The notes below the pieces were generated by a model, which was not told the DNA's origin, ran no database searches, and worked only from the letters and a program-made list of their open reading frames with translations. Made by a program: the position numbers and the translations under genes. Of a stretch of DNA of 64,000 nt, positions 1,361 to 59,715 are shown piece after piece. Source of the DNA: Ezakiella massiliensis (GTDB lineage: Bacteria > Bacillota > Clostridia > Tissierellales > Peptoniphilaceae); the NCBI RefSeq assembly GCF_900120165.1, contig NZ_LT635475.1:930001-994000 (forward strand), given 5' to 3'. Position 1 is the stretch's first letter; each line of letters begins with the position of its first letter.

Positions 1361-1370
1361 ATTTGTGGAA

Positions 1371-1493
1371 TTTGTGGTTAATTTCGCGACATTCTTGTGA
1401 AAAAATTTTTTAGTCCTCGATGTACACTTGAGTACACCTGCGTCCTAAAAAAATTTATTTCACTTCGAATCTCATCGAAATTCCCTCACAAAA
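1371..1493 (+). repeat. Dispersed repeat element A, copy 1
   Basis: About 123 bp running from TTTGTGGTTAATTTCGCGAC to TTCCCTCACAAA. The reverse complement of 7182-7302 matches it almost base for base. The core is an imperfect hairpin: TTTTTTAG, a GTAC half, a short loop, GTACACC, then CCTAAAAAA. It sits directly behind the peptidase gene. No coding potential is seen. Confidence 0.85.
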
Positions 1494-1526
1494 TATATGT
1501 ATAAAGATTATGTAATTTATAAAATT

Positions 1527-1566
1527 AAAAAAATCTTGCAGGAATAATATCCTGCAAGATTTTTTA
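1527..1566. terminator. Bidirectional intrinsic terminator
   Basis: A perfect stem AATCTTGCAGGA / TCCTGCAAGATT with a 6-nt loop. It is followed by T runs on both strands, so it can end both the peptidase transcript (+) and the small membrane-protein transcript (-). Confidence 0.88.
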
Positions 1567-1959
1567 TATATCAGATATTCTTAATATCATATTTTTTACG
1601 CCTTGACTCACGACTTCTTTCCACTTATCTGTAATAATCCACGCAGTTATAATACATAATGCCGCAAAAGCTAAATACAATATTTTATCAAATGTATTTA
1701 ACTTGTACCCACGCATCATCATAACCAGAGGTACGATACCTACGGCTAAACAGAAAGAAAAAGATTCGCAAACATCAACAATATTTGCAAATATATCGTC
1801 AAGCTGCACAAGGTTTTTTATATGATAAATCATAACTAATAGGACTATCACATTTAAAACTAGCTTAAGCCTTGACCTATTCTTCTCAAGCGTAACCTGT
1901 GTTTTATCTTGTACTTCGCTTTTATTTGAAGCATTGTTTAATCCATATAATTCATTCAT
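1564..1959 (-). CDS. Small membrane protein of unknown function
   Basis: About 131 aa. I do not recognise a family. A soluble, charged N-terminal 30 residues (Asn/Lys/Gln rich) is followed by three likely membrane segments: around LKLVLNVIVLLVMIY, FCLAVGIVPLVMMM and LYLAFAALCIITAWI. The longest frame starts at a TTG at 1986. I prefer the ATG at 1959 because it overlaps the stop of the upstream gene as ATGA (1956-1959), the usual arrangement for translational coupling. The partner gene encodes a small exported protein, so the two probably act together at the membrane. A secreted peptide with its immunity or anchor protein is one possibility, but nothing in the sequence proves it. Confidence 0.6.
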   Translation of the reverse strand: MNELYGLNNASNKSEVQDKTQVTLEKNRSRLKLVLNVIVLLVMIYHIKNLVQLDDIFANIVDVCESFSFCLAVGIVPLVMMMRGYKLNTFDKILYLAFAALCIITAWIITDKWKEVVSQGVKNMILRISDI

Positions 1960-2435
1960 CTCGTATAGATATTGGGTTTTCCCCAACCCCAGTATTTATC
2001 AAAAGTATATTCAACGACTACATAAGAAATCCTTCCATAATAAAAATCTCTTAATGCATTGTACCAAAAGCTAGCATCTTTTGCATCATAAATTTCTGAT
2101 GCAAGACCTACAATTTTGGCAACAGTTACTATTGGTTCAAGAAACAATTCAGCTACGATTTGAGCGGGTAAAGTTTGAATATCTTTTGCTGCTTGCCCAG
2201 TACCATGCCTTCTATCATACTCACGTAAGACATCATCGAAATATAAATGTCTTACAATCCTTGTCCCATCAGCTGGAACCCCAGGTTCGTCAATTGGACC
2301 TTGCCAAGCACTATTATTAAGTTGCACAGACGGCATTTTTATTTTTCTTTCTACTAATACAGCTTTAGACACGTTTGCAAATACAAATGTAAATGCAATC
2401 ATAATAGCTAAAGCCACAGATGATTTTCTTCTCAT
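1956..2435 (-). CDS. Small exported protein of unknown function
   Basis: 159 aa. Residues 1-25 form a clear Sec signal peptide (MRRK, a hydrophobic core, then cleavage near VSKA). The mature part is about 134 aa, rich in aromatic residues, and ends with a Tyr/Trp-rich tail (FDKYWGWGKPN). No cysteines and no lipobox are visible. A good ribosome site (GGAGGTG) lies 6-7 bp before the ATG. The stop overlaps the start of the downstream membrane-protein gene by 4 bp, so the two form a dedicated two-gene unit bounded by a terminator. Function unknown; a bacteriocin-like secreted product is only a guess based on size and context. Confidence 0.65.
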   Translation of the reverse strand: MRRKSSVALAIMIAFTFVFANVSKAVLVERKIKMPSVQLNNSAWQGPIDEPGVPADGTRIVRHLYFDDVLREYDRRHGTGQAAKDIQTLPAQIVAELFLEPIVTVAKIVGLASEIYDAKDASFWYNALRDFYYGRISYVVVEYTFDKYWGWGKPNIYTR

Positions 2436-2756
2436 CTTACACCTCCGTTATTATTTTCTATAAACTGTCGACTGTTTACTATTTGATGTTACCATATATT
2501 TTATATTTTGTCAACTTTAATTAATAATTTTATATACAGATTATTTGATTTGTATAGTTAAAATTCTTGGCATAATTTGGAAGATAAGAATAAATGACCG
2601 ATATAAAATCAGCACACGAAAATTCATCGATAATTCCTCACAAATTCTATCTAAATAAATTTTATAACAGGTTATAATATTTTTTTGTGTTATTTGTTAG
2701 CAAAATTTTTTTACATATTATTTGCACGTAACGAAAACAAAAAATATGGCCTGGGG
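2436..2756. other. AT-rich intergenic stretch; left arm of a hairpin repeat split by the IS
   Basis: No gene seen. The first ~60 bp carry the promoter region of the exported-protein gene. The last ~30 bp (AACGAAAACAAAAAATATGG) match the left arm of the hairpin element that is intact at 5973-6045. The right arm of this copy resumes after the insertion sequence at 4336. Confidence 0.6.
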
Positions 2757-2776
2757 TGTTCCCAAAAAGTTGGACA
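2757..2776 (+). repeat. IS left terminal inverted repeat
   Basis: TGTTCCCAAAAAGTTGGACA pairs imperfectly with the complement of 4316-4335 (about 16 of 20 positions, with small shifts). Confidence 0.75.
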
Positions 2777-2915
2777 AATAATTTGTTCATCTAAAAGAAT
2801 GCTTTCTACTTGCTAACTAAATTTTTGAATGCGATTGTCAAGGGTTGCGAAGCAACTTGCATAGCCCTTGACATAAAGCTTATTCAAAAATTTAAAATTT
2901 GGCAAGAAAGCTTCT

Positions 2916-3848
2916 TTATGCTCTTTCTTTTTCTTCGTAATACTTGGCCCTTTTTTCATTGGGGCTTAGGTAGTTGTTCTTTTCTTTTATTCTTGTGTTG
3001 TTGTAGTATTCCACAAATTCATCTACTGCCTTTTGTAACTGCTCTAGGCTTTTGAATTTTGTTTTACTTAGTTTTTCTCTTTTAATTACTGACCAGAAGC
3101 TTTCTATGACTGAGTTGTCTAGGCAGTTGCCTTTTCTTGACATGCTTTGGTAGATATTATTTTCTTTTAGTAGGTCTTGGTATTCTTTACTGAAGTATAT
3201 GATGCCTTGGTCTGAATGAAATGTTCTTCTGTATTCTGCATTATTGGTTTTTCTTATGGTTTCTTTTGCTAGATCTATGAAGGGTTCTTTTCTCATGTTG
3301 TCTACTACGTTGTATGAGATTATTTTCCTGTCAAATCCATCTATGAAGGCGTTTAGGTAGGCCCATGTATAGTTTTCTTTGTCTTTATATATTTTTACAT
3401 AGGTTGTGTCTGTAAAGAGTTTTAGATTTGGCATTGTGGAGTCAAATCTTCTTTTTATTCTGTTTGGTATGTCTTTTAGGCTTCCTAGGAATGTGTATGG
3501 TTTTCTGGTTTTCTTGGTTTTTATTTGCATGCCCAGTTCTTTGTATAGTCTATGGACTTTTTTTATGTTTATTTCTTCATCCATCTTTAATACTGCGTGT
3601 ATTCTTCTTAGTCCATAGTTTGGATGAGCTTCTCTTATTTCTAGCATTTTAAGTTTTAGTTCTGAGTCTTTGTCAGGCTCTCTCATTCTGTCTAGATTGT
3701 GGTAGAAGGTGGATCTAGCTAGTCCTATTACTTCAAGAATTGTCTTTAGTGGGTATTGTCTTCGGAGGTCTTCGGCAATCCTTGTTTTTTCTTCGTTTTT
3801 TCTTGAAGTCGAATCCTCCTCAACTCTTTTAAATATGCGTTTTCTATT
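2916..3848 (-). CDS. IS3-family transposase OrfB (DDE integrase), reached by -1 frameshift
   Basis: Catalytic half of the IS3 transposase. The frame has an ATG at 3686 (256 aa) but is open back to 3848. The extra N-terminal part reads ...RIAEDLRRQYPLKTILEVIG..., the normal HTH_21 region of OrfB, so translation most likely enters from orfA by -1 slippage rather than at the ATG. The rve integrase core has D in FTDTTYVKIY, D in FHSDQGIIY and E in NSVIESFWSVIKRE, the DDE triad with the usual spacing. The C-terminal YYNNTRIKEKNNYLSPNEK block is also typical. No stop or gap disrupts it. Confidence 0.9.
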   Translation of the reverse strand, partial: NRKRIFKRVEEDSTSRKNEEKTRIAEDLRRQYPLKTILEVIGLARSTFYHNLDRMREPDKDSELKLKMLEIREAHPNYGLRRIHAVLKMDEEINIKKVHRLYKELGMQIKTKKTRKPYTFLGSLKDIPNRIKRRFDSTMPNLKLFTDTTYVKIYKDKENYTWAYLNAFIDGFDRKIISYNVVDNMRKEPFIDLAKETIRKTNNAEYRRTFHSDQGIIYFSKEYQDLLKENNIYQSMSRKGNCLDNSVIESFWSVIKREKLSKTKFKSLEQLQKAVDEFVEYYNNTRIKEKNNYLSPNEKRAKYYEEKERA

Positions 3849-4300
3849 TCAAGTCTTAGTAGCTTCTCATCTTTTTCTTCTAATTTTTTTATGAATTCGT
3901 TCTTGTCATCTATGTTTGAATATTTGCTTTTCTTAAGGTTTTTATCTTTACTCAATTCTTGGCCTTCCCTTCGTATATACTCAGGAAGGAGCCTTTGGTA
4001 GTATTTGTATACCCAGCTTGAAAATGTCATGGCTGGTATGCCATGGCTCTTAGCAAACTTTGTTAGGGCATCTCCCTTCCTTAGGTACAATTCTACTAGA
4101 TTATGTCTTTCTTGTAAAGTTAAGGTGTTTCTTTTGCTTGAGTCCATAAAGGCATCTGGTCCGTATTCGTTGTGTGTTTGGATCCAGCCTTGAAGGGTTG
4201 TTTTGGGGATGTTGTTTATCTTTGTGAATTTTCTAAGTGATAGTTTTGAGTTTAGATATTCTTCTACTTTCTTCTTTTTGTAGTCTTTAGTGTAGTCCAT
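3746..4300 (-). CDS. IS3-family transposase OrfA (helix-turn-helix protein)
   Basis: 184 aa from the ATG at 4300, which has a GGAGGAGAAC ribosome site directly upstream; the longer 206-aa frame starts inside the terminal repeat region and is unlikely. Two helix-turn-helix units (LRKFTKINNIPKTTLQGWI and LTKFAKSHGIPAMTFSSWV) bind the IS ends. They are followed by a Lys/Glu-rich coiled coil with a leucine pattern (EKLLRLEIENAYLKELRRI) used for dimerisation. The two-HTH arrangement is characteristic of the IS150 group. Its 3' end overlaps the orfB frame by about 100 bp. Confidence 0.88.
   Translation of the reverse strand: MDYTKDYKKKKVEEYLNSKLSLRKFTKINNIPKTTLQGWIQTHNEYGPDAFMDSSKRNTLTLQERHNLVELYLRKGDALTKFAKSHGIPAMTFSSWVYKYYQRLLPEYIRREGQELSKDKNLKKSKYSNIDDKNEFIKKLEEKDEKLLRLEIENAYLKELRRIRLQEKTKKKQGLPKTSEDNTH
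3784..3803 (-). promoter_or_regulatory. Probable programmed -1 frameshift site of the IS
   Basis: On the minus strand, orfA reads GAA AAA ACG AAG AAA AAA CAA. Slipping back one base on the second A6 run gives the orfB frame GAA AAA ACA AGG. This agrees with the A6-type slippery sites of IS3 elements; the use of this exact run is inferred. Confidence 0.65.
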
Positions 4301-4335
4301 GTTCTCCTCCTTTTGTGTCCAATTTTCGGGGAACA

Positions 4336-4385
4336 GGACAGCCACCATAAAGGTGGCCGCTACCAACGCTTCGCGTTATTTTTTG
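4336..4385 (+). repeat. Hairpin repeat element (short form), right arm cut off by the IS
   Basis: GCCACC-ATAAA-GGTGGC hairpin followed by CGCTACC and AACGCTTCGCGTTA. It matches the right half of the intact copy at 5973-6045. It belongs to the short ATAAA-loop family described in the findings. Confidence 0.8.
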
Positions 4386-4414
4386 CTTAGTATTTTATTT
4401 ATCTACATGATTAT

Positions 4415-5854
4415 TTATATGAAGAATTGGATTAATTTAAAAATCAGATAAGAAAGGAAAAACTTTGTTTTCTTCCCTCTCTCCACTTTCGGTTCTATGA
4501 AATCCTCTCTTTGGATAAATTCATTATCCCATCCAACTTGTAGGGATTGGTCCAGGGTCGACTGGATTTGGGATATGAAGTCTTGGGTGAAGGCTGGGCT
4601 ATCGACGACGACCATGGTTTCGGTATTTAGATTTACCGACCGGGAATCCATGTTAAAGGACCCGACAAGGGTAATCTGGTCGTCAAAGACCAGGGCCTTG
4701 CCGTGGATTGATTCCTCGCCCAGGTATTCGTAAATATTTATGCCTGTAGCCAAAAACTTTTTCCTTTGAAAGAGATAATTTGGCGAGGCCATGATATTGT
4801 TGGCAGAGTAAAGGGAATTTGTAATGAAGGTCGTGTCTAGGTTCTCACCAAGGGCTGTCAAAAAATCCATAATTGGTTTTGTCCCCGTTGCATAAGGCGT
4901 TTGCACATAGGCGGAAGTCCTCGCCTCCTTAGCCAAATCTGTCAGGTCATTTAGGACCCAGGCTTCGTTTTTGCCAAAGCGGGCTTCAAGGGGATTGTGA
5001 AAGACCTTGATCCTCTTAGCTGTAAAAGTTGCGTCGACAAAATCACTAATAGAACGGTTGTAAAGGTCGCCCTTGTCAGCTAGAAATATTTTGCCATCAG
5101 CCAAGAGCTCTTGAATTTTTTCTGGGTCTGGTCTTTTAACTTTGACTTTCCTGCTAAGTTTATTGGTCCACAGGTCTTCATAATAAGATTCTAAGGCGTC
5201 GACTATACTCAATGGTCCATCGCTTGAATCCTTGACCATAAAAATATCCCAGTCGTGCTTGTTAGCTGCCAATGGATTTGCCAGGGCAAAGTATGGATCT
5301 CCAACATTTCTGCCGCCTGTCAGGGCGTACTTGTTGTCGACCAAAATTATTTTATCGTGGAGGCCTTCAAAAAGTGTCCAGGGCCTGTAAATTTTTACTG
5401 GATTATAACGGCCAAATTCTATATTGGGATGGCTGGCCAGGGCCCGTCTATATTTTTTGGGTAAGCCGCCCATCTTGCCGTCGACCATAAGGCGGATCTT
5501 TACTCCCCGGTCAGCCGCGGCAACCAGCTCACTTAAAAAAGCTTGAGACGAATCGTCAGTATCGATAGCATAATAAACCACGTTCACATAATCCTCAGCC
5601 GCTCGAACCATAGACAGGCGAACCGCAAGTGCATCCGTCGGATCGCCAATGGCCTTGACTCGGTCAGGGCTTATTGAATTTTCTCCTGCTGCCTCCCAGT
5701 CACGGGCCATCTGCAAAGCCGCTTCAGTCCGTGGGTGGTTTTTGGCCGGAATAAAATAAGAAAAAATCCCCGCGACCAAAATATATATTAAAATTATCCA
5801 AAAAATCTTTTTCAAAAATCTAAGCACAAGCGCCATATCAACAAAACCTTTCAT
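4415..5854 (-). CDS. Phospholipase D-like / cardiolipin synthase-like membrane protein
   Basis: About 479 aa. One N-terminal membrane segment (FLKKIFWIILIYILVAGIF) anchors the protein, and two PLD catalytic motifs follow: HDKIILVD in the first half and HGKALVFD with GSFNMDSRS in the second. These are the two HxK(x4)D halves that form one active site in cardiolipin synthases and related phosphatidyltransferases, so the likely role is phospholipid head-group transfer at the membrane. The start is uncertain between two adjacent ATGs (5857 and 5854) behind a GGGGGGAT ribosome site; I take the second, which has better spacing. The gene is alone between repeat-rich gaps. The exact substrate cannot be read from sequence. 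Confidence 0.88.
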   Translation of the reverse strand: MKGFVDMALVLRFLKKIFWIILIYILVAGIFSYFIPAKNHPRTEAALQMARDWEAAGENSISPDRVKAIGDPTDALAVRLSMVRAAEDYVNVVYYAIDTDDSSQAFLSELVAAADRGVKIRLMVDGKMGGLPKKYRRALASHPNIEFGRYNPVKIYRPWTLFEGLHDKIILVDNKYALTGGRNVGDPYFALANPLAANKHDWDIFMVKDSSDGPLSIVDALESYYEDLWTNKLSRKVKVKRPDPEKIQELLADGKIFLADKGDLYNRSISDFVDATFTAKRIKVFHNPLEARFGKNEAWVLNDLTDLAKEARTSAYVQTPYATGTKPIMDFLTALGENLDTTFITNSLYSANNIMASPNYLFQRKKFLATGINIYEYLGEESIHGKALVFDDQITLVGSFNMDSRSVNLNTETMVVVDSPAFTQDFISQIQSTLDQSLQVGWDNEFIQREDFIEPKVERGKKTKFFLSYLIFKLIQFFI

Positions 5855-5969: not shown

Positions 5970-6045
5970 ATGAAAACAAAAAAATATGGCTACCATACAT
6001 AAAGGTAGCCTCTACAACGCTTCGCGTATTTTTTGTTTTGATTTT
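5970..6045 (+). repeat. Hairpin repeat element (short form), intact copy
   Basis: Nested palindrome: outer arms GAAAACAAAAAAATA and TATTTTTTGTTTT enclose GGCTACC-ATACATAAA-GGTAGCC, then TCTACAACGCTTCGCG. This is the intact reference for the copy split by the IS at 2730/4336. Confidence 0.82.
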
Positions 6046-6081
6046 AATAATATAATAGATGTATTTTGTGTGTGAATATTT

Positions 6082-6627
6082 TTAAATGCTTTTCACCATT
6101 TTTATGTCACTATATCGGGAACCGTTCTTTAAGATAATGGCATCGGGAATCTCTCCCACCTGAATGTATCCAAGTTTATCGTAGAGGATCCTGCCTCTTT
6201 CATTTCCTGAATAATAATCCAACTCCAATTGGGAAAGCCCCAAAACCCTTGCATATTCTTCAAGGCAAAGAAGTAGTTTCCTTCCTATTCCTAGATTCCA
6301 AAATTCTTTTAATACCGCCAACGCGACATTTCCTCGATGGCACATCTTCTTTCTACTAAGTCTTGTGATCGTCCCATTTGCGATTAACCTTCCATCCATT
6401 TCAACAACAAGCATAAGGGTGCCCTCGGATTCGTTAAAGCCCTGAATCATTTTTGCCTCATCTTCGGCAGTCATGGTTATTTCTTCTGGATAAGAATTTA
6501 AAAAATCAGATTCCCCCATAATAGTTTTTAGGTATTCAACCATTTGGTCAGCGTCCTTTACCTCAATCTCTCGGATTTTGCAGATTCGACCATCTTTTAA
6601 TTCAAAATTCTCAGCTTTAAATTTCAT
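6082..6627 (-). CDS. GNAT-family N-acetyltransferase
   Basis: 181 aa. Transfers an acetyl group from acetyl-CoA to an amine of unknown identity. The acetyl-CoA pocket motif is [21 protein letters not shown], the Q/RxxGxG/A loop with its helix. It is followed by beta-5 and the [23 protein letters not shown] segment, typical of RimI-like acetyltransferases. The length is normal for a single-domain GNAT. An ATG with a GAGGGA ribosome site gives the start. It stands alone on the minus strand with repeat-filled gaps on both sides, so context gives no hint of substrate. Confidence 0.85.
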
Positions 6628-6664
6628 ATAATCCCTCGCATAGGTTTTTAAAAAATATTTTCAA

Positions 6665-6960
6665 TTGCCAAATATTAAAAATGCCTCACGCATACAAGAT
6701 GCGATCAGCATTTTTCGGTCCACATTCTCCTTAAGATTATTGCAAGCAAGCAGGATTTTTTAATAAGAATCCATAGGAGAAGGAGTTTTTCTCGCCCACG
6801 GGACATCGAGTCTCCGTGTGCGAGGTGTCCACAATAAAGTGGACGGTACATAGCTACACGAACATTGATCAGGATATGAGCAAGGCCGCAAACATCCGTT
6901 ACAACGCTCCGCGTATTTTTTGTTTTTTATTAATATGATAAATTTTTGACTTTTGGGGCA
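6665..6960 (+). repeat. Composite hairpin repeats (5' fragment plus two hairpin types)
   Basis: No gene. Contains, in order: a 5' fragment of the long element (GTCCACATTCTCC...GATTATTGCA, 6698-6725); a CACGGGACATCGAGTCTCCG hairpin (6795-6825, stem CTCGCCCACGG / CCGTGTGCGAG); a short-form hairpin GTCCAC-AATAAA-GTGGAC followed by GGTAC (6828-6850); and the tail ACAACGCTCCGCGTATTTTT also seen at 6013. Confidence 0.8.
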
Positions 6961-6970
6961 AGACTTTTGC

Positions 6971-7147
6971 GGGCGACATTCTCCTCAGATTGTTGTACCC
7001 AATCAAACAAAATTTTTTGGCCGAAATAAATCGGCCGCTACATGAAAATTTTGTTTTCTTGGACAACAAGTTGCGTGAGTCACTGCTAGCCAATCATCTT
7101 CACGCTTTCGCGCTCGATTCTTGGGCAGGGCTGCAAGTCGCCCCTAC
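6971..7147 (+). repeat. Structured repeat, long form, copy L1
   Basis: Outer stem GGGCGAC (6971) / GTCGCCC (7137) plus the CTAC tail. Inside are conserved blocks TCCTCAGA, GTTGCGTGAGTC, GCTAGCCAATC and TTGGGCAGGGCTGCAAG. A second stem TTGTTGT / ACAACAA encloses a nested short-form hairpin GGCCGA-AATAAA-TCGGCC-GCTAC (7019-7041), flanked by AAAATTTT arms. Copies L2 (15391) and L3 (19984) have different stem sequences that remain paired. Confidence 0.8.
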
Positions 7148-7181
7148 AACGTTCTAATGCAAATCCGTTTGATATTAATTA

Positions 7182-7302
7182 TTTGCGAGGAAATTTCGAT
7201 GAGATTCGAAGTGAAAGAAATTTTTTAGGACGCAGGTGTACTCAAGCGTACATCGAGGACTAAAAAATTTTTTCACGAGAATGTCGCGAAATTAACCGCA
7301 AA
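7182..7302 (-). repeat. Dispersed repeat element A, copy 2 (overlaps the hisS stop codon)
   Basis: Reverse-complement copy of 1371-1493. Read on the minus strand, it begins in the last codons of hisS: the shared string TGCGGTTAATTTCGCGAC supplies the final Cys-Gly codons and the TAA. Confidence 0.85.
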
Positions 7303-8611
7303 TAAAGTTATAGATGCCTTCGTAGTCGTCAATATCCTTTATCATTTCTACGCCCGTCTCCATCTGTTTAATATAAATCTGGCCTTTTTCGATTTCATTG
7401 CCGCCGATTACTGTTACAAATGGAATGCCTTCTTTGTTGGCGTAGTTCATGGATTTTTTGACCCTTCTATCCATCTTTTCGATTTCGACTTTGAGGCCTA
7501 GCTTGCGGAGATTTTCCGCCAGGATAAAGCTTGGCACTTGGGTGTCCATTGGAATTATAAAGAGATCAACAAGTGGCTGGTTCTCACCTTCCGACTTGGC
7601 CTTTAGGACTTCATAGATTACGTCGAGTCCAAAGGACATGCCTATGGCTGGATATTCATTGCCGTCGTCGATAAAGGTCCCGATGATCTTGTCATAGCGG
7701 CCGCCACCGCCCAATGACACGTTAAATTCGTGGCCGTTTACAACCCGGTCTTTTAAGAAAATTTCCCAAACTGTGGATGTATAAATGTCAATGCCACGGG
7801 CCAAAAATGGCTTAAAGGCCATGGACTCATTGGCATCTGTGTTTGCTGTTAGAGCATGGAGCTCGTCGAGTTCTTTCAAACCCTCTTGCAAGAGTTCGAC
7901 TTCCGAATCTTTGTATTTGTCTTTGATTTCATCATAGGTCATAGAGAAAGTCGCGTAGAGATTTTCAAATTTGTCAGCCCCAAAACCCAATTCTGCAAAT
8001 TCTTTTGCAAGAGCTTCCTTGGTCATCTTGTCCAGTTTATCCACCAGCATAATGCACTTTCTTAAAGACTCTTCGTCCATTTGGCCCAGGGTTTCAATTA
8101 TGAGTCCGTACAAAAGTTTCCTATTATTATATAAAATTTCCACTTCCAGGCCTAAATCCTTGTAGGCGTGGTGGGTCAGGTTCATAAATTCTGCCTCTTG
8201 GAGCATTGATGAAATGCCGACTGCGTCCACATCACACTGGGTAAACTCGCGGTTCCTGCCGAGCTTTACTGGGCCGTCGCGGTAGACCCTGCCGATTTCG
8301 TGGCGCTTAAAAGGAAGTGTAATCCCCCTGTTAGATGAAATTAATTTTGTCAGGCAAATGGTCAGGTCATAGCGAAGACCCAAAGCCCGCTCGCCTTGGT
8401 CCGACAGCTGATAAATTTCGTCCAAGATATCCGCGTCAGCAGAATATTTTGACGTCAACAAATCAAGCATGCAAACAATTGGCGTTTCCGCTGCAGGAAA
8501 GCCGTACTTAACAAAATTTTTCTTTAAAATATCCTTTATGTGTTCTCTCAACATCTGCTCGTGGGGCAGGTAGTCGTGAGTTCCCTTTAGTGTTTCAAAT
8601 TCTTTAGCCAT
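7292..8611 (-). CDS. hisS: Histidyl-tRNA synthetase
   Basis: 439 aa; charges tRNA-His in the cytoplasm. Class II motifs are visible: motif 2 as GRVYRDGPVKLGRNREFTQCDVD, the His-specific RGIDIYTSTVWEIF block and motif 3 near PAIGMSFGLDVI. A C-terminal anticodon-binding domain starts near residue 330 (VDLFIIPMDTQVPSF...). The length is normal for bacterial HisRS. The ATG lies at the end of the upstream acetyltransferase gene with a 1-bp overlap (TAATG-type), so the two are co-translated. The last codons and stop lie inside a dispersed repeat that also occurs at 1371, which suggests the repeat fixed the present C-terminus. A HisZ-type paralogue is less likely because the anticodon domain is present. 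Confidence 0.95.
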   Translation of the reverse strand: MAKEFETLKGTHDYLPHEQMLREHIKDILKKNFVKYGFPAAETPIVCMLDLLTSKYSADADILDEIYQLSDQGERALGLRYDLTICLTKLISSNRGITLPFKRHEIGRVYRDGPVKLGRNREFTQCDVDAVGISSMLQEAEFMNLTHHAYKDLGLEVEILYNNRKLLYGLIIETLGQMDEESLRKCIMLVDKLDKMTKEALAKEFAELGFGADKFENLYATFSMTYDEIKDKYKDSEVELLQEGLKELDELHALTANTDANESMAFKPFLARGIDIYTSTVWEIFLKDRVVNGHEFNVSLGGGGRYDKIIGTFIDDGNEYPAIGMSFGLDVIYEVLKAKSEGENQPLVDLFIIPMDTQVPSFILAENLRKLGLKVEIEKMDRRVKKSMNYANKEGIPFVTVIGGNEIEKGQIYIKQMETGVEMIKDIDDYEGIYNFICG

Positions 8612-15390: not shown

Positions 15391-15592
15391 TGCTAATCGG
15401 TTTTGTCCACCATTTTCCTCAGACTCTTGTACTCACTCAAAAAAATTCTTGGCGACCATAAAGGATCGCCCCTACGGGAATTTTTTCTTCGTGAACAAGA
15501 GGTTGCGTGAGTCGCTGCTTACCAATCGAGCGTCGTTATCACTCGCTCTCTTGGGCAGGGCTGCAAGGTTCGACGCTACAGACCGATTAGCA
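15391..15592 (+). repeat. Structured repeat, long form, copy L2
   Basis: Outermost stem TGCTAATCGGT (15391-15401) / ACCGATTAGCA (15582-15592), then GTCCACC / GGTTCGAC. Conserved blocks TTTTCCTCAGA, GGTTGCGTGAGTCGCTGCT and TTGGGCAGGGCTGCAAG. Covarying inner stems are CTCTTGT / ACAAGAG and GAGCG / CGCTC. A nested short hairpin GGCGA-CCATAAAGGA-TCGCC-CCTAC lies at 15451-15475. No gene is seen in 15325-15787. The rest of the gap (15593-15787) is AT-rich, with a GGCGCG...CGCC-type hairpin at about 15664-15690. Confidence 0.8.
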
Positions 15593-17935: not shown

Positions 17936-17976
17936 AGATGTTCTGATTGGTAAATCTTACGGCCAAAGCAAATTCA
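17922..17976 (+). repeat. Flanking repeat of the ABC-2 gene pair, upstream copy
   Basis: Two blocks: ATATTTACTAAAGATGTTCT then GATTGGTAAATCTTACGGCC. Both recur downstream of the ABC-2 genes, in swapped order, at 19797-19832 and 19876-19905. The gap 17809-18176 holds no gene. Confidence 0.7.
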
Positions 17977-19699: not shown

Positions 19700-19920
19700 T
19701 TTGCCGTTAATTCCGCGATATTTTGCAGCTAGGACGCCGTCGATTGGCTAGCAGGTCTCGTGTCAGAGATTCCCAAGAGAACGAGTGTAACGATGTTCGA
19801 TTGGTGAATCTTACGGCCAAGGCAAATTATGTCAGTGGGATTAATTTAGAGAAGATAAATAATTTTATCAAATATTTACTAAAGATGTTCTGATTGGAGA
19901 ACATCTTATTTTTATATTAT
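19697..19920 (+). repeat. Mixed repeats downstream of the ABC-2 pair
   Basis: No gene. Starts with TTTGCCGTTAATTCCGCGA, a degenerate start of element A. Then a partial long-form element with the blocks GATTGGCTAGCAG and CCAAGAGAACGAG / GTTCGATTGG (the complement gives CCAATCGAAC / GTTCTCTTGG, a covarying stem). Then the two blocks shared with 17922-17976. Confidence 0.65.
19885..19918 (+). terminator. Probable intrinsic terminator of the ABC-2 genes
   Basis: AAAGATGTTCT-GATTGG-AGAACATCTT followed by ATTTTTAT. The arm sequence is also part of the repeat at 17934. Confidence 0.65.
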
Positions 19921-19983: not shown

Positions 19984-20170
19984 TACCGTCCACTTGCAGC
20001 CACGCCCAAGAGGCGAACGCGAAAGCGTGAAGACGATTGGCTAGCGTTGACTCACGCAACCTATTTCTCAAGAAAACGAGCCAAAGGCGATGTTTGATTG
20101 ATTGAAATAGTCTGAGGAAAATTGTGGACACCTCGCACACGGAGACTCAATGTCCCGTGGTCGCGCGCGT
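19984..20170 (-). repeat. Structured repeat, long form, copy L3, with CGGAGACTC hairpin
   Basis: On the minus strand: GTCCAC (20124-20129 complement), AATTTTCCTCAGA, stem CTATTTC / GAAATAG, GGTTGCGTGAGTC, GCTAGCCAATC, TTGGGCGTGGCTGCAA and GTGGAC-GGTAC. It is joined to the hairpin CACACGG-AGACTCAATGT-CCCGTGG. The short-form equivalent of exactly this composite is at 59521-59580. Confidence 0.8.
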
Positions 20171-27315: not shown

Positions 27316-27402
27316 AATAAACCTCCTTTAACATTTTTCATTCTAGCATGAGTTAAAAAAGATTACATGAGTAAATACTGCAATTTTTATTTTTTCAACA
27401 AA

Positions 27403-27434
27403 AAAATTGTGGGTTTTTAGGCCCACAACTTTAT
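27403..27434. terminator. Hairpin terminator between the two exporter genes
   Basis: AAATTGTGGG / CCCACAACTTT with flanking A and T runs, just downstream of the stop at 27450. Confidence 0.78.
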
Positions 27435-29057: not shown

Positions 29058-29081
29058 AAAGCTACATTTAAATTCTGCAAA

Positions 29082-29116
29082 AAATTGTGGGCTCTTAGGC
29101 CCACAACTTTAAATCT
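29082..29116. terminator. Hairpin terminator after the ABC-2 operon
   Basis: AAAAATTGTGGGC / GCCCACAACTTT just after the stop at 29118; near-identical in style to 27403. Confidence 0.78.
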
Positions 29117-42964: not shown

Positions 42965-43085
42965 AAACAAATCCGCACTTCATTTACCTACATTATACCA
43001 CAAATCCGCATTATAATATAGGTCGTTTTACCACAAATCCGCATTATAATATGGCCCGTTTTACCACAAATCCACATTATAATTC
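42965..43085 (-). repeat. Tandem 33-bp repeats with promoter-like boxes
   Basis: Units start at 42998, 43031 and 43064, plus a degenerate one at 42965. The core is CCACAAATCCGCATTATAAT. On the minus strand each unit gives TATAAT and TTGTGG; the unit nearest the ATPase gene gives an extended -10, TGGTATAAT. No spacers, so not a CRISPR. Confidence 0.8.
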
Positions 43086-43117
43086 TGTAATTTGCTGTCT
43101 AATTTGCGAAATTCTTG

Positions 43118-57670: not shown

Positions 57671-57708
57671 GATTTATAAAACGTAATTTTTATTTGTAAG
57701 CGTGCGGG

Positions 57709-57840
57709 CGGACAATTTGAAAAATAAAATGCAATTTGCATTTCAAAACGCAAGGCCGGACAATTTGAAAAATAAAATGCAATTTAAATTTAAAAATGCA
57801 AGGCAAAGCAATTTGAAATATAAAATGCGATTTAAAAATA
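57709..57840 (+). repeat. Tandem 48-bp repeats
   Basis: Units start at 57709, 57757 and (partial) 57805: CGGACAATTTGAAAAATAAA, then ATGCAATTT, a variable middle and CGCAAGGC. Unit length is divisible by three, so the minus strand stays open (a 16-residue repeat), but that frame runs into the promoter and lacks a credible start. Confidence 0.8.
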
Positions 57841-59487: not shown

Positions 59488-59504
59488 TGGGGTTTTCCCA
59501 CGGA

Positions 59505-59715
59505 TATTAATATAGCCATGTACCGTCCACTTTATCGTGGACACCTCGGTCACGGAGACTCGATGTCCCGTGACCGAGATTATGTGGACCGAATTTTTTC
59601 TAAGTGAGGACAAGAATCTCAAGGAAAATGTGGAGCGAATTTTTCTTAATTGCCTGCAACAATTCTAAAGGAGAATGTCTCCCAAGATTCTTGCCCCATA
59701 TATTTTTCAAATCAC
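59505..59715 (-). repeat. Composite hairpin repeat, short-loop form, plus two 5' fragments of the long element
   Basis: No gene in 59440-59786. GTCCAC-TTTATC-GTGGAC (59525-59542, reverse short form) is followed by the hairpin CGGTCACGG...CCCGTGACCG with loop AGACTCGATGT (59547-59578). Then, on the complement, two partial long-form starts (ATTCTCCTTTAGAATTGTTGC and CCACATTTTCCTTGAGATTC) lie one after the other. Confidence 0.78.

Follow-up and report, generated by a model that had tools for sequence, protein, structure and literature searches.

Ezakiella carries a small dispersed element of about 100-125 nt, which we regard, with a probability of roughly 0.6, as a structured mobile DNA that probably moves as a folded single strand and has been amplified together with REPs in this genus. 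The element has a covarying structure, is dispersed in many copies, is met at filled as well as at empty sites, and in at least one case has inserted exactly and without target duplication. Its usual seat in Ezakiella is the loop of a REP, and REPs are in turn nested in its arms. The material comes from a window of 64,000 nucleotides, by which we mean the whole stretch of DNA analysed, in an Ezakiella genome of 1,741,785 bases (1.74 Mb; G000), together with searches of that genome and of its relatives.

Copies in the window and their fold

An earlier note on this window had described three copies of a structured repeat (L1-L3). All three are recognised at the places given there by model R1, which was derived from alignment A3 of 13 G000 copies without nested inserts (L3 included, L1 and L2 not), and the blocks, stems and coordinates it had claimed are all present in the window sequence. 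The partial copy suspected near 19750-19800 corresponds to a related element, but one of a second subtype, here called type II. The features are as follows.

6971..7148 (core 6981-7136), plus strand: L1, type I element in a REP hairpin (R1, 108.2 bits)
6971-6977 and 7137-7143: half-stems GGGCGAC and GTCGCCC of the REP hosting L1, with the tag CTACA at 7144-7148
G000 840197: empty REP with the stem of L1, GGGCGACATAAAGTCGCCCCTACA
6990-6996 and 7063-7069, plus strand: covarying arm 2 of L1, TTGTTGT/ACAACAA (helix 2 of A3)
7019..7042 (G000 937026), plus strand: simple REP within arm 2 of L1, GGCCGA-AATAAA-TCGGCC-GCTACA
7070..7081, plus strand: conserved block GTTGCGTGAGTC of L1
15391..15592 (core 15415-15566), plus strand: L2, type I element in a REP (R1, 103.9 bits)
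15405-15411 and 15567-15574: imperfect half-stems GTCCACC and GGTTCGAC of the REP hosting L2
15391-15401 and 15582-15592: palindrome outside the REP of L2, TGCTAATCGGT and ACCGATTAGCA
15451..15475, plus strand: simple REP within arm 2 of L2, GGCGACC-ATAAA-GGATCGCC-CCTAC (read from the sequence)
19984..20129 (core 19994-20119), minus strand: L3, type I element (R1, 127.0 bits), seated in the loop of a GTCCAC/GTGGAC REP, itself part of a longer composite repeat
19708..19821, minus strand: type II element with degenerate 3' part (model R2, 70.1 bits, E 1.8e-13)
17943..17966 (approximate), minus strand: left-end fragment of type II, GGCCGTAAGATTTACCAATC (from the sequence, duplicate D19; no model match)
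6790..6865 (stretch 6785-6880), plus strand: empty host composite GTGTCCACAATAAAGTGGACGGTACAT, REP loop without element (repeats I3, I5)
59504..59579 (stretch 59490-59600), minus strand: second empty host composite, a close variant (repeat I3)
7169..7303, plus strand, and 1370-1505, minus strand: third palindromic repeat family (repeats I1, I4)

The window contains the block GTTGCGTGAGTC in three exact copies and in five with up to two mismatches (shuffle mean 2.0); in G000 the block is found 22 times exactly and 26 times with up to one mismatch, as against four places for the reversed control pattern. These 26 places are our loci L001-L026 (L011 being L1 and L012 being L2), two of which, L025 and L026, are non-members as judged by eye; the incomplete L003, L023 and L024 were left out of alignment A1, and the start points of L001, L015, L016 and L021 were corrected by hand. 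Of 568 candidates in G000, 150 were scored with R1, giving at least 35 matches at E<=0.1 and at least 33 at E<=0.01.

A copy in Ezakiella consists, from left to right, of a REP half-stem, ATT, a C or T followed by TCCTCAGA or a similar string, arm 2 (CTnTTGT.../...ACAAnAG with the inner slot CAATC...TTG), GTTGCGTGAGTC, arm 3 (CTGC-ATA-CCAATC...TCTTGG-GCAG or ACGC-TAG-CCAATC...TCTTGG-GCGT), GGGCTGCAA, the second REP half-stem and CTACA. Fixed blocks (TTGCRTGAGWC, GGGCTKCAA, CCAATC...TCTTGG) thus join two covarying arms, and beneath the third stem lies a further one overlooked earlier, CTGC/GCAG in some copies versus ACGC/GCGT in others.

Covariation was judged by alignment shuffles and column slides, and in A3, A6 and A8, which comprise genome copies and relatives, it exceeds the shuffles, as the earlier note had expected. 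In A3, 96.6% of 416 cells are paired and 9 of 32 pairs vary at both positions; two-sided changes number 40 versus 11.8 in shuffles. Paired fraction, two-sided cells and covariation score were reached by none of the 500 shuffles, the count of pairs with two-sided change was matched by 49 and that of further pair types by 497, and sliding the partner by 1-3 columns lowers pairing to 32-43%. The covariation proposed for the inner stem is confirmed in helix 2 of A3, where two-sided change affects 4 of 7 pairs and 100% of the cells are paired (L1 not being a row of A3). The outer stem, said to covary as well, is indeed variable, but it belongs to the REP hairpin of the host and not to the element itself. 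In A6, made of type II copies and relatives, two-sided change is seen in 12 of 22 pairs, in a sample leaning towards structure since its rows were picked by R1; in A8 (72 matches, 70 distinct rows) it is seen in 20 of 22 pairs and 323 cells, and 94.6% of 1475 cells are paired, the rows having been fitted to the structure. CTCA/TGAG is invariant and TTGC/GCAA nearly so within Ezakiella (A3), the latter being lost in most other genera by eye; jointly these two pairings would form a pseudoknot. Whether taken as RNA or as DNA, each strand of L018, the sole copy that was folded, folds better than shuffled sequence (z -3.2 to -3.7), and the two do about equally well. A hint only is given by the loops: on the TGTAG strand many small arm loops in the Ezakiella slots have the form G..A (GNA, GNNA) and internal TC/TC loops become GA/GA, with 7 of 44 cores misfitting the script and left out, and across all genera G..A was found in 3 of 15 triloops and 15 of 24 tetraloops (automatic folding, overlapping cuts).

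Host hairpins, empty sites and turnover

Eighteen of the 21 complete copies fill the loop of a GTAG-tagged REP hairpin (stem-ATAAA-stem-CTACA), with half-stems on both sides, and among these the half-stems of L001, L005, L006 and L012 are imperfect and no longer match. L008 and L014 have flanks of other kinds, and L004 combines a REP left flank with a right flank of the L008 type, a sign of recombination between copies. A further REP sits inside an arm in 8 of the 21 copies (L001, L006, L010, L011, L012, L016, L017, L019), so that REPs lie in elements, which lie in REPs, which lie in larger palindromes. REPs, as characterised in parts of PMC6006769, carry a GTAG or GTGG tag 0-2 nt 5' of a hairpin, measure 21-65 nt and have loops of 2-5 nt or one further short stem. 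In 144,568 G000 bases (the window plus loci chosen mostly around copies) we counted 40 simple hairpins with ATAAA loop, 35 with CTAC and 5 with GTAC; CTAC just 3' in 35 of 40 is the REP tag on the opposite strand, which is not a free test since the script demanded CTAC or GTAC. The filled units are larger than REPs, with inserts of 119-172 nt, and about one base of the REP loop is lost on filling. Filled and empty composites are both present in the window, the host of L3 being empty at 6785-6880 and, in a variant, at 59490-59600.

At all four collinear places of Ezakiella peruensis examined (those of L1, L2 and the copies at 883,887 and 884,341) the element is absent, but these are not clean single insertions, the two genomes differing over entire intergenic stretches. 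The reverse case is the E. peruensis copy at C1:14125-14246: it falls in an interval collinear with window 1364-4415, in which no match was obtained. The flanks of L001, L003, L005, L006, L015 and L016, among others, align to E. peruensis stretches with an R1 match; some copies are therefore probably shared between the two.

One insertion was found in a relative, G154 (L204, identical with L215), where the element lies in frame and open throughout in a protein gene. The filled site reads GAACAACTG[GCCG...TTCA]ATGGTTATGG versus GAACAACTGATGG-like empty sites, the empty junction being GAACAACTG^ATGGTT; the insert of 102 nt (34 codons) is exact, and at this empty site in one gene there is neither a target duplication, as would be expected of MITEs, nor were simple terminal inverted repeats seen. 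Among 20 loci scanned for this gene site, 11 have an uninterrupted frame (L218, L221-L225, L229-L233) and two rows are filled (L204, L215); the remaining seven gave no row with the expression used by the script. The same place is also filled in G190 (L216), G237 (L217) and G209 (L208/L220), the frame in these three being not open throughout or the insertion out of frame. The right junction, TTCA^ATG, is identical in all four filled genomes; the left one is exact in one, one base shorter in L208 and L217, which produces a stop at the element start, and not seen in L216. The uninterrupted gene itself (L229, 1003-1725, minus strand) is a 240-aa frame of unknown function beginning MLKNRKKGLGTMSKLFMYGTSLEGIEQLM, and several genomes have it more than once.

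Other seats are diverse. Copies of the third palindromic repeat elsewhere in G000 hold type II elements, and type II copies of Ezakiella lie at two places of this repeat: in L050, L053 and L250, at the first of these, the element again has the ends GCCG...TTCG, and in L016 and L021, at the second, some few bases have been replaced. The gene rlmD offers another seat at its 3' end (L179 and L207, whose frames pass TIGR00479 with 350.9 and 304.1 versus the required 183.55 bits; L177 and L180 by eye). In L177, L179, L180 and L207 the relatives of the element follow directly after the HVE codons of rlmD and provide a new protein tail. Further copies lie beside a serine recombinase (L173, with Resolvase and Recombinase domains; L169-L172 and L178 by eye) and near tRNA genes or partial copies of them (tRNA-Leu in L055, tRNA-Phe in L063, tRNA-Asp in L067 and L069; pieces by eye). 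In L055 (1389-1660) a type II copy is placed between an intact tRNA-Leu and a duplicate of its 5' part, which by eye ends in the anticodon loop, and tRNA pieces also flank the copies in L063 and L067. Two oppositely oriented matches per 3-kb locus were observed in L204, L065, L074, L165 and L177. Outside the genus the complementarity of the flanks is modest (permutation 1/2000; 10 of 36 loci below p 0.1).

Distribution and a candidate mover

R1 finds matches in 14 of 130 genomes of the family (own genome included), weak ones outside the genus. With the broader model R2, built from 13 relatives and type II copies (A6), the element was detected in 61 of 130 genomes and 24 of 39 genera of the family (E<=0.001), in 85 of 249 genomes and 42 of 92 genera of the order (E<=1e-4), in 31 of 391 genomes of the class, 12 of them from the own order, and in 7 of 398 genomes drawn across the phylum, 4 of them outside the class. 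Ranks are those of GTDB, the order being taken as Tissierellales, the E-values of such purpose-built models are rough, and R2 copy numbers are lower bounds, given that 28, 14 and 9 candidates were scored per genome. Plasmid and phage records gave no match to a type I or R2-type query. Spread by viruses was considered and dismissed: an exact pattern occurs in seven stretches of viral contigs, but these all contain one kind of unrelated sequence that looks coding, and none was matched by R1.

On the G000 chromosome dnaA lies at 1,150,680, and GC skew, sampled in 20 stretches, switches sign there and between ~194 and 281 kb. All 35 R1 matches listed lie within 600 kb of dnaA, a span that makes up 69% of the chromosome (p 2e-6, copies next to each other not being independent); beyond this distance there is one R2 match, a weak one at about 110 kb (E 0.0039). 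Orientation with respect to replication, which in IS200/IS605-type elements favours the lagging-strand template, is not significantly biased (22 of 35, p 0.18).

G000 has a single Y1_Tnp gene (~891,403-892,083), 38 kb before the window and with REPs on both sides; domain, single copy and REP flanks are those of a RAYT. Its NF047646 score of 68.2 bits lies under the NCBI cut-off of 80, which is passed by 3 of 130 family genomes, and it matched none of the PDB sequences. The best relative is that of E. peruensis M6.X2 (NZ_LT962469.1, 94% identical); there the RAYT is followed, at distances of ~0.4 and ~0.6 kb, by the starts of two type I copies. Within the genus, the two genomes with Y1_Tnp, G000 and G046, have 26 and 27 R1 matches, the four without it 0, 0, 1 and 3. 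Within the family, a RAYT of at least 45 bits is present in 8 of 17 genomes with at least five R2 matches versus 13 of 113 others (Fisher p 0.0012, the test ignoring kinship and both thresholds being those of this analysis). Of 20 RAYT loci, 3 have an element at a distance of up to 1.5 kb (the G000 locus is not among them), versus none of the 30 loci with the strongest Y1_Tnp hits, in genomes unmatched for copy number. The single RAYT of Ezakiella would act on REPs, and would amplify the element as cargo of the REP loop or insert it into such loops; the element itself would move as folded single-stranded DNA by an IS200/IS605-like (HUH, Y1) route.

A RAYT is nevertheless not a general mover, as 9 of the 17 high-copy genomes lack one of at least 45 bits. 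G040 has at least 23 matches and no Y1_Tnp, G122 at least 28 matches, one weak Y1_Tnp and no NF047646; like G004 and G087, both have high copy numbers, and in none of the four does an NF047646 match reach E<=0.001, so a RAYT of the G000 type cannot be the only mover. No Y1_Tnp match was found in 56 of 130 family genomes, some of them high-copy (G040, G004). Among the genomes searched here we found no autonomous element with these ends. That the element is the end of an IS200 copy was rejected: in G096 it adjoins an IS200-type gene but by eye lies outside the IS, and none of the 30 loci of the strongest Y1_Tnp hits contains an R2 match.

Competing explanations and related systems

The earlier note had left the choice between structured RNA and mobile element. 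Covariation, the lack of an Rfam family, the empty sites and the absences in E. peruensis speak for mobile DNA, and RNA is not favoured. An RNA is expected to tolerate G-U pairs; the stems of A8 contain 1380 Watson-Crick, 16 G-T and 26 A-C pairs, and the rarity of G-U, not enriched over A-C on either strand, argues for folded DNA. For comparison, 27 tRNAs from the fetched loci have 38 G-T in 579 bracketed pairs, a control uninformative on A-C since ARAGORN brackets contain allowed pairs only. A structured non-coding or cis-regulatory RNA that became multi-copy by chance would account for the strong covariation, the fixed unpaired blocks and the folding of L018 beyond shuffles, on both strands and as RNA and DNA; we nevertheless consider it improbable in view of the G-U counts, the flanks that by eye vary from copy to copy, the nesting in REPs and other palindromes, the position once in a reading frame, and the Rfam check, which as predicted gave no match (in the window only a tRNA, in the loci of 18 relatives only a THF riboswitch elsewhere). 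What we see looks like jumping DNA folded as a single strand rather than an RNA gene, though transcripts of the element may play some role. Most simply, what is preserved or rewritten is the pairing as such, at the level of DNA. Mobile folded DNA can, it seems, produce covariation, which is usually taken as proof of a structured RNA, and counting G-U against A-C pairs is a simple test separating the two.

There are two further explanations. The unit could be a passive variant of REPs, with loops lengthened by slippage and template switching and then spread with the REP by the RAYT, and not a separate unit; the REP-loop seat of 18 of 21 Ezakiella copies and the 323 two-sided cells with few one-sided changes, which fit templated copying, are in line with this, but a protein gene and a different family of palindromes also contain the unit, with no REP around it, and it is present in genera without RAYT hit, so we think this explanation unlikely. 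We equally doubt that it is a MITE of an ordinary DDE or other transposase. Small size, multiple copies, presence in 85 of 249 genomes of the order and the 56 of 130 family genomes (G040 and G004 with high copy number) without Y1_Tnp match would suit a MITE, against which stands the exact empty site without target duplication or visible simple terminal inverted repeats. Compared with these, a mobile DNA moved as a folded single strand remains our preferred reading. Going beyond it, we tentatively entertain a class of minimal mobile DNA, present across the order and scattered in the taxonomic class, which has a single-strand fold as its main conserved feature, recursively enters other hairpins and receives them in turn, and has RAYT-type amplifiers in some lineages; stems would here be rewritten by intrastrand templated copying, giving compensatory changes without wobble intermediates.

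IS200/IS605 elements insert without target duplication. The element described here likewise has a single strand that can fold (L018) and, in one gene, no target duplication; unlike them it contains no internal transposase gene. Folded ends and single-strand processing, set out in parts of PMC6006769, are further common traits, and according to the same parts TnpA-REP requires single strands. With the REP/BIME/REPIN systems and their RAYT it shares the many GTAG-tagged hairpins and the REP-flanked RAYT gene (passages of PMC6006769 and PMC3733652), but differs in the two-armed unit of 119-172 nt in the loop and in its occurrence outside REPs and in genomes without RAYT hit. REPs within larger palindromes, with long self-complementary loops (some GTAG families) and in genes are on record in passages of PMC3733652; the GTAG-15 dimers in long palindromes of A. 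variabilis resemble our case in such nesting, whereas here nesting occurs in both directions and the insert folds into a conserved set of several arms. The words Firmicutes, Finegoldia, Peptoniphilus and Anaerococcus are absent from the portion of the PMC3733652 text drawn on here. The in-frame palindromic elements of Rickettsia (RPE), reviewed in PMC10969869 and there in part described as ~150 bp elements entering genes in frame, are similar in this respect, but belong to another phylum, and the in-frame case here concerns one gene in one genome, G154; the comparison is by description. PMC9302094 deals with another Ezakiella genome. As far as a limited literature search and Rfam show, the present family appears undescribed; it is in the style of known REP, RPE and IS200-type systems, but not of their size and structure. 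It hints at a REP/RAYT biology among Gram-positive anaerobes whose loops are far larger, and its filled and empty sites are a tractable set for studying how hairpins enter hairpins and what domesticated transposases carry.

Some further features of the window should be mentioned. A GNAT acetyltransferase gene (6082-6627, minus strand; PF00583, 39.0 bits) lies between direct repeats TACAACGCTYCGCGTATTTTTTGTTTT (window 6013-6926), and the collinear place of E. peruensis is without this gene and has in its stead an apparent insertion sequence, seated in a REP. Tandem repeats lie at 57676-57819 (48 nt) and 42993-43091 (33 nt), and two near-identical terminator-like hairpins at 27401-27433 and 29079-29111.
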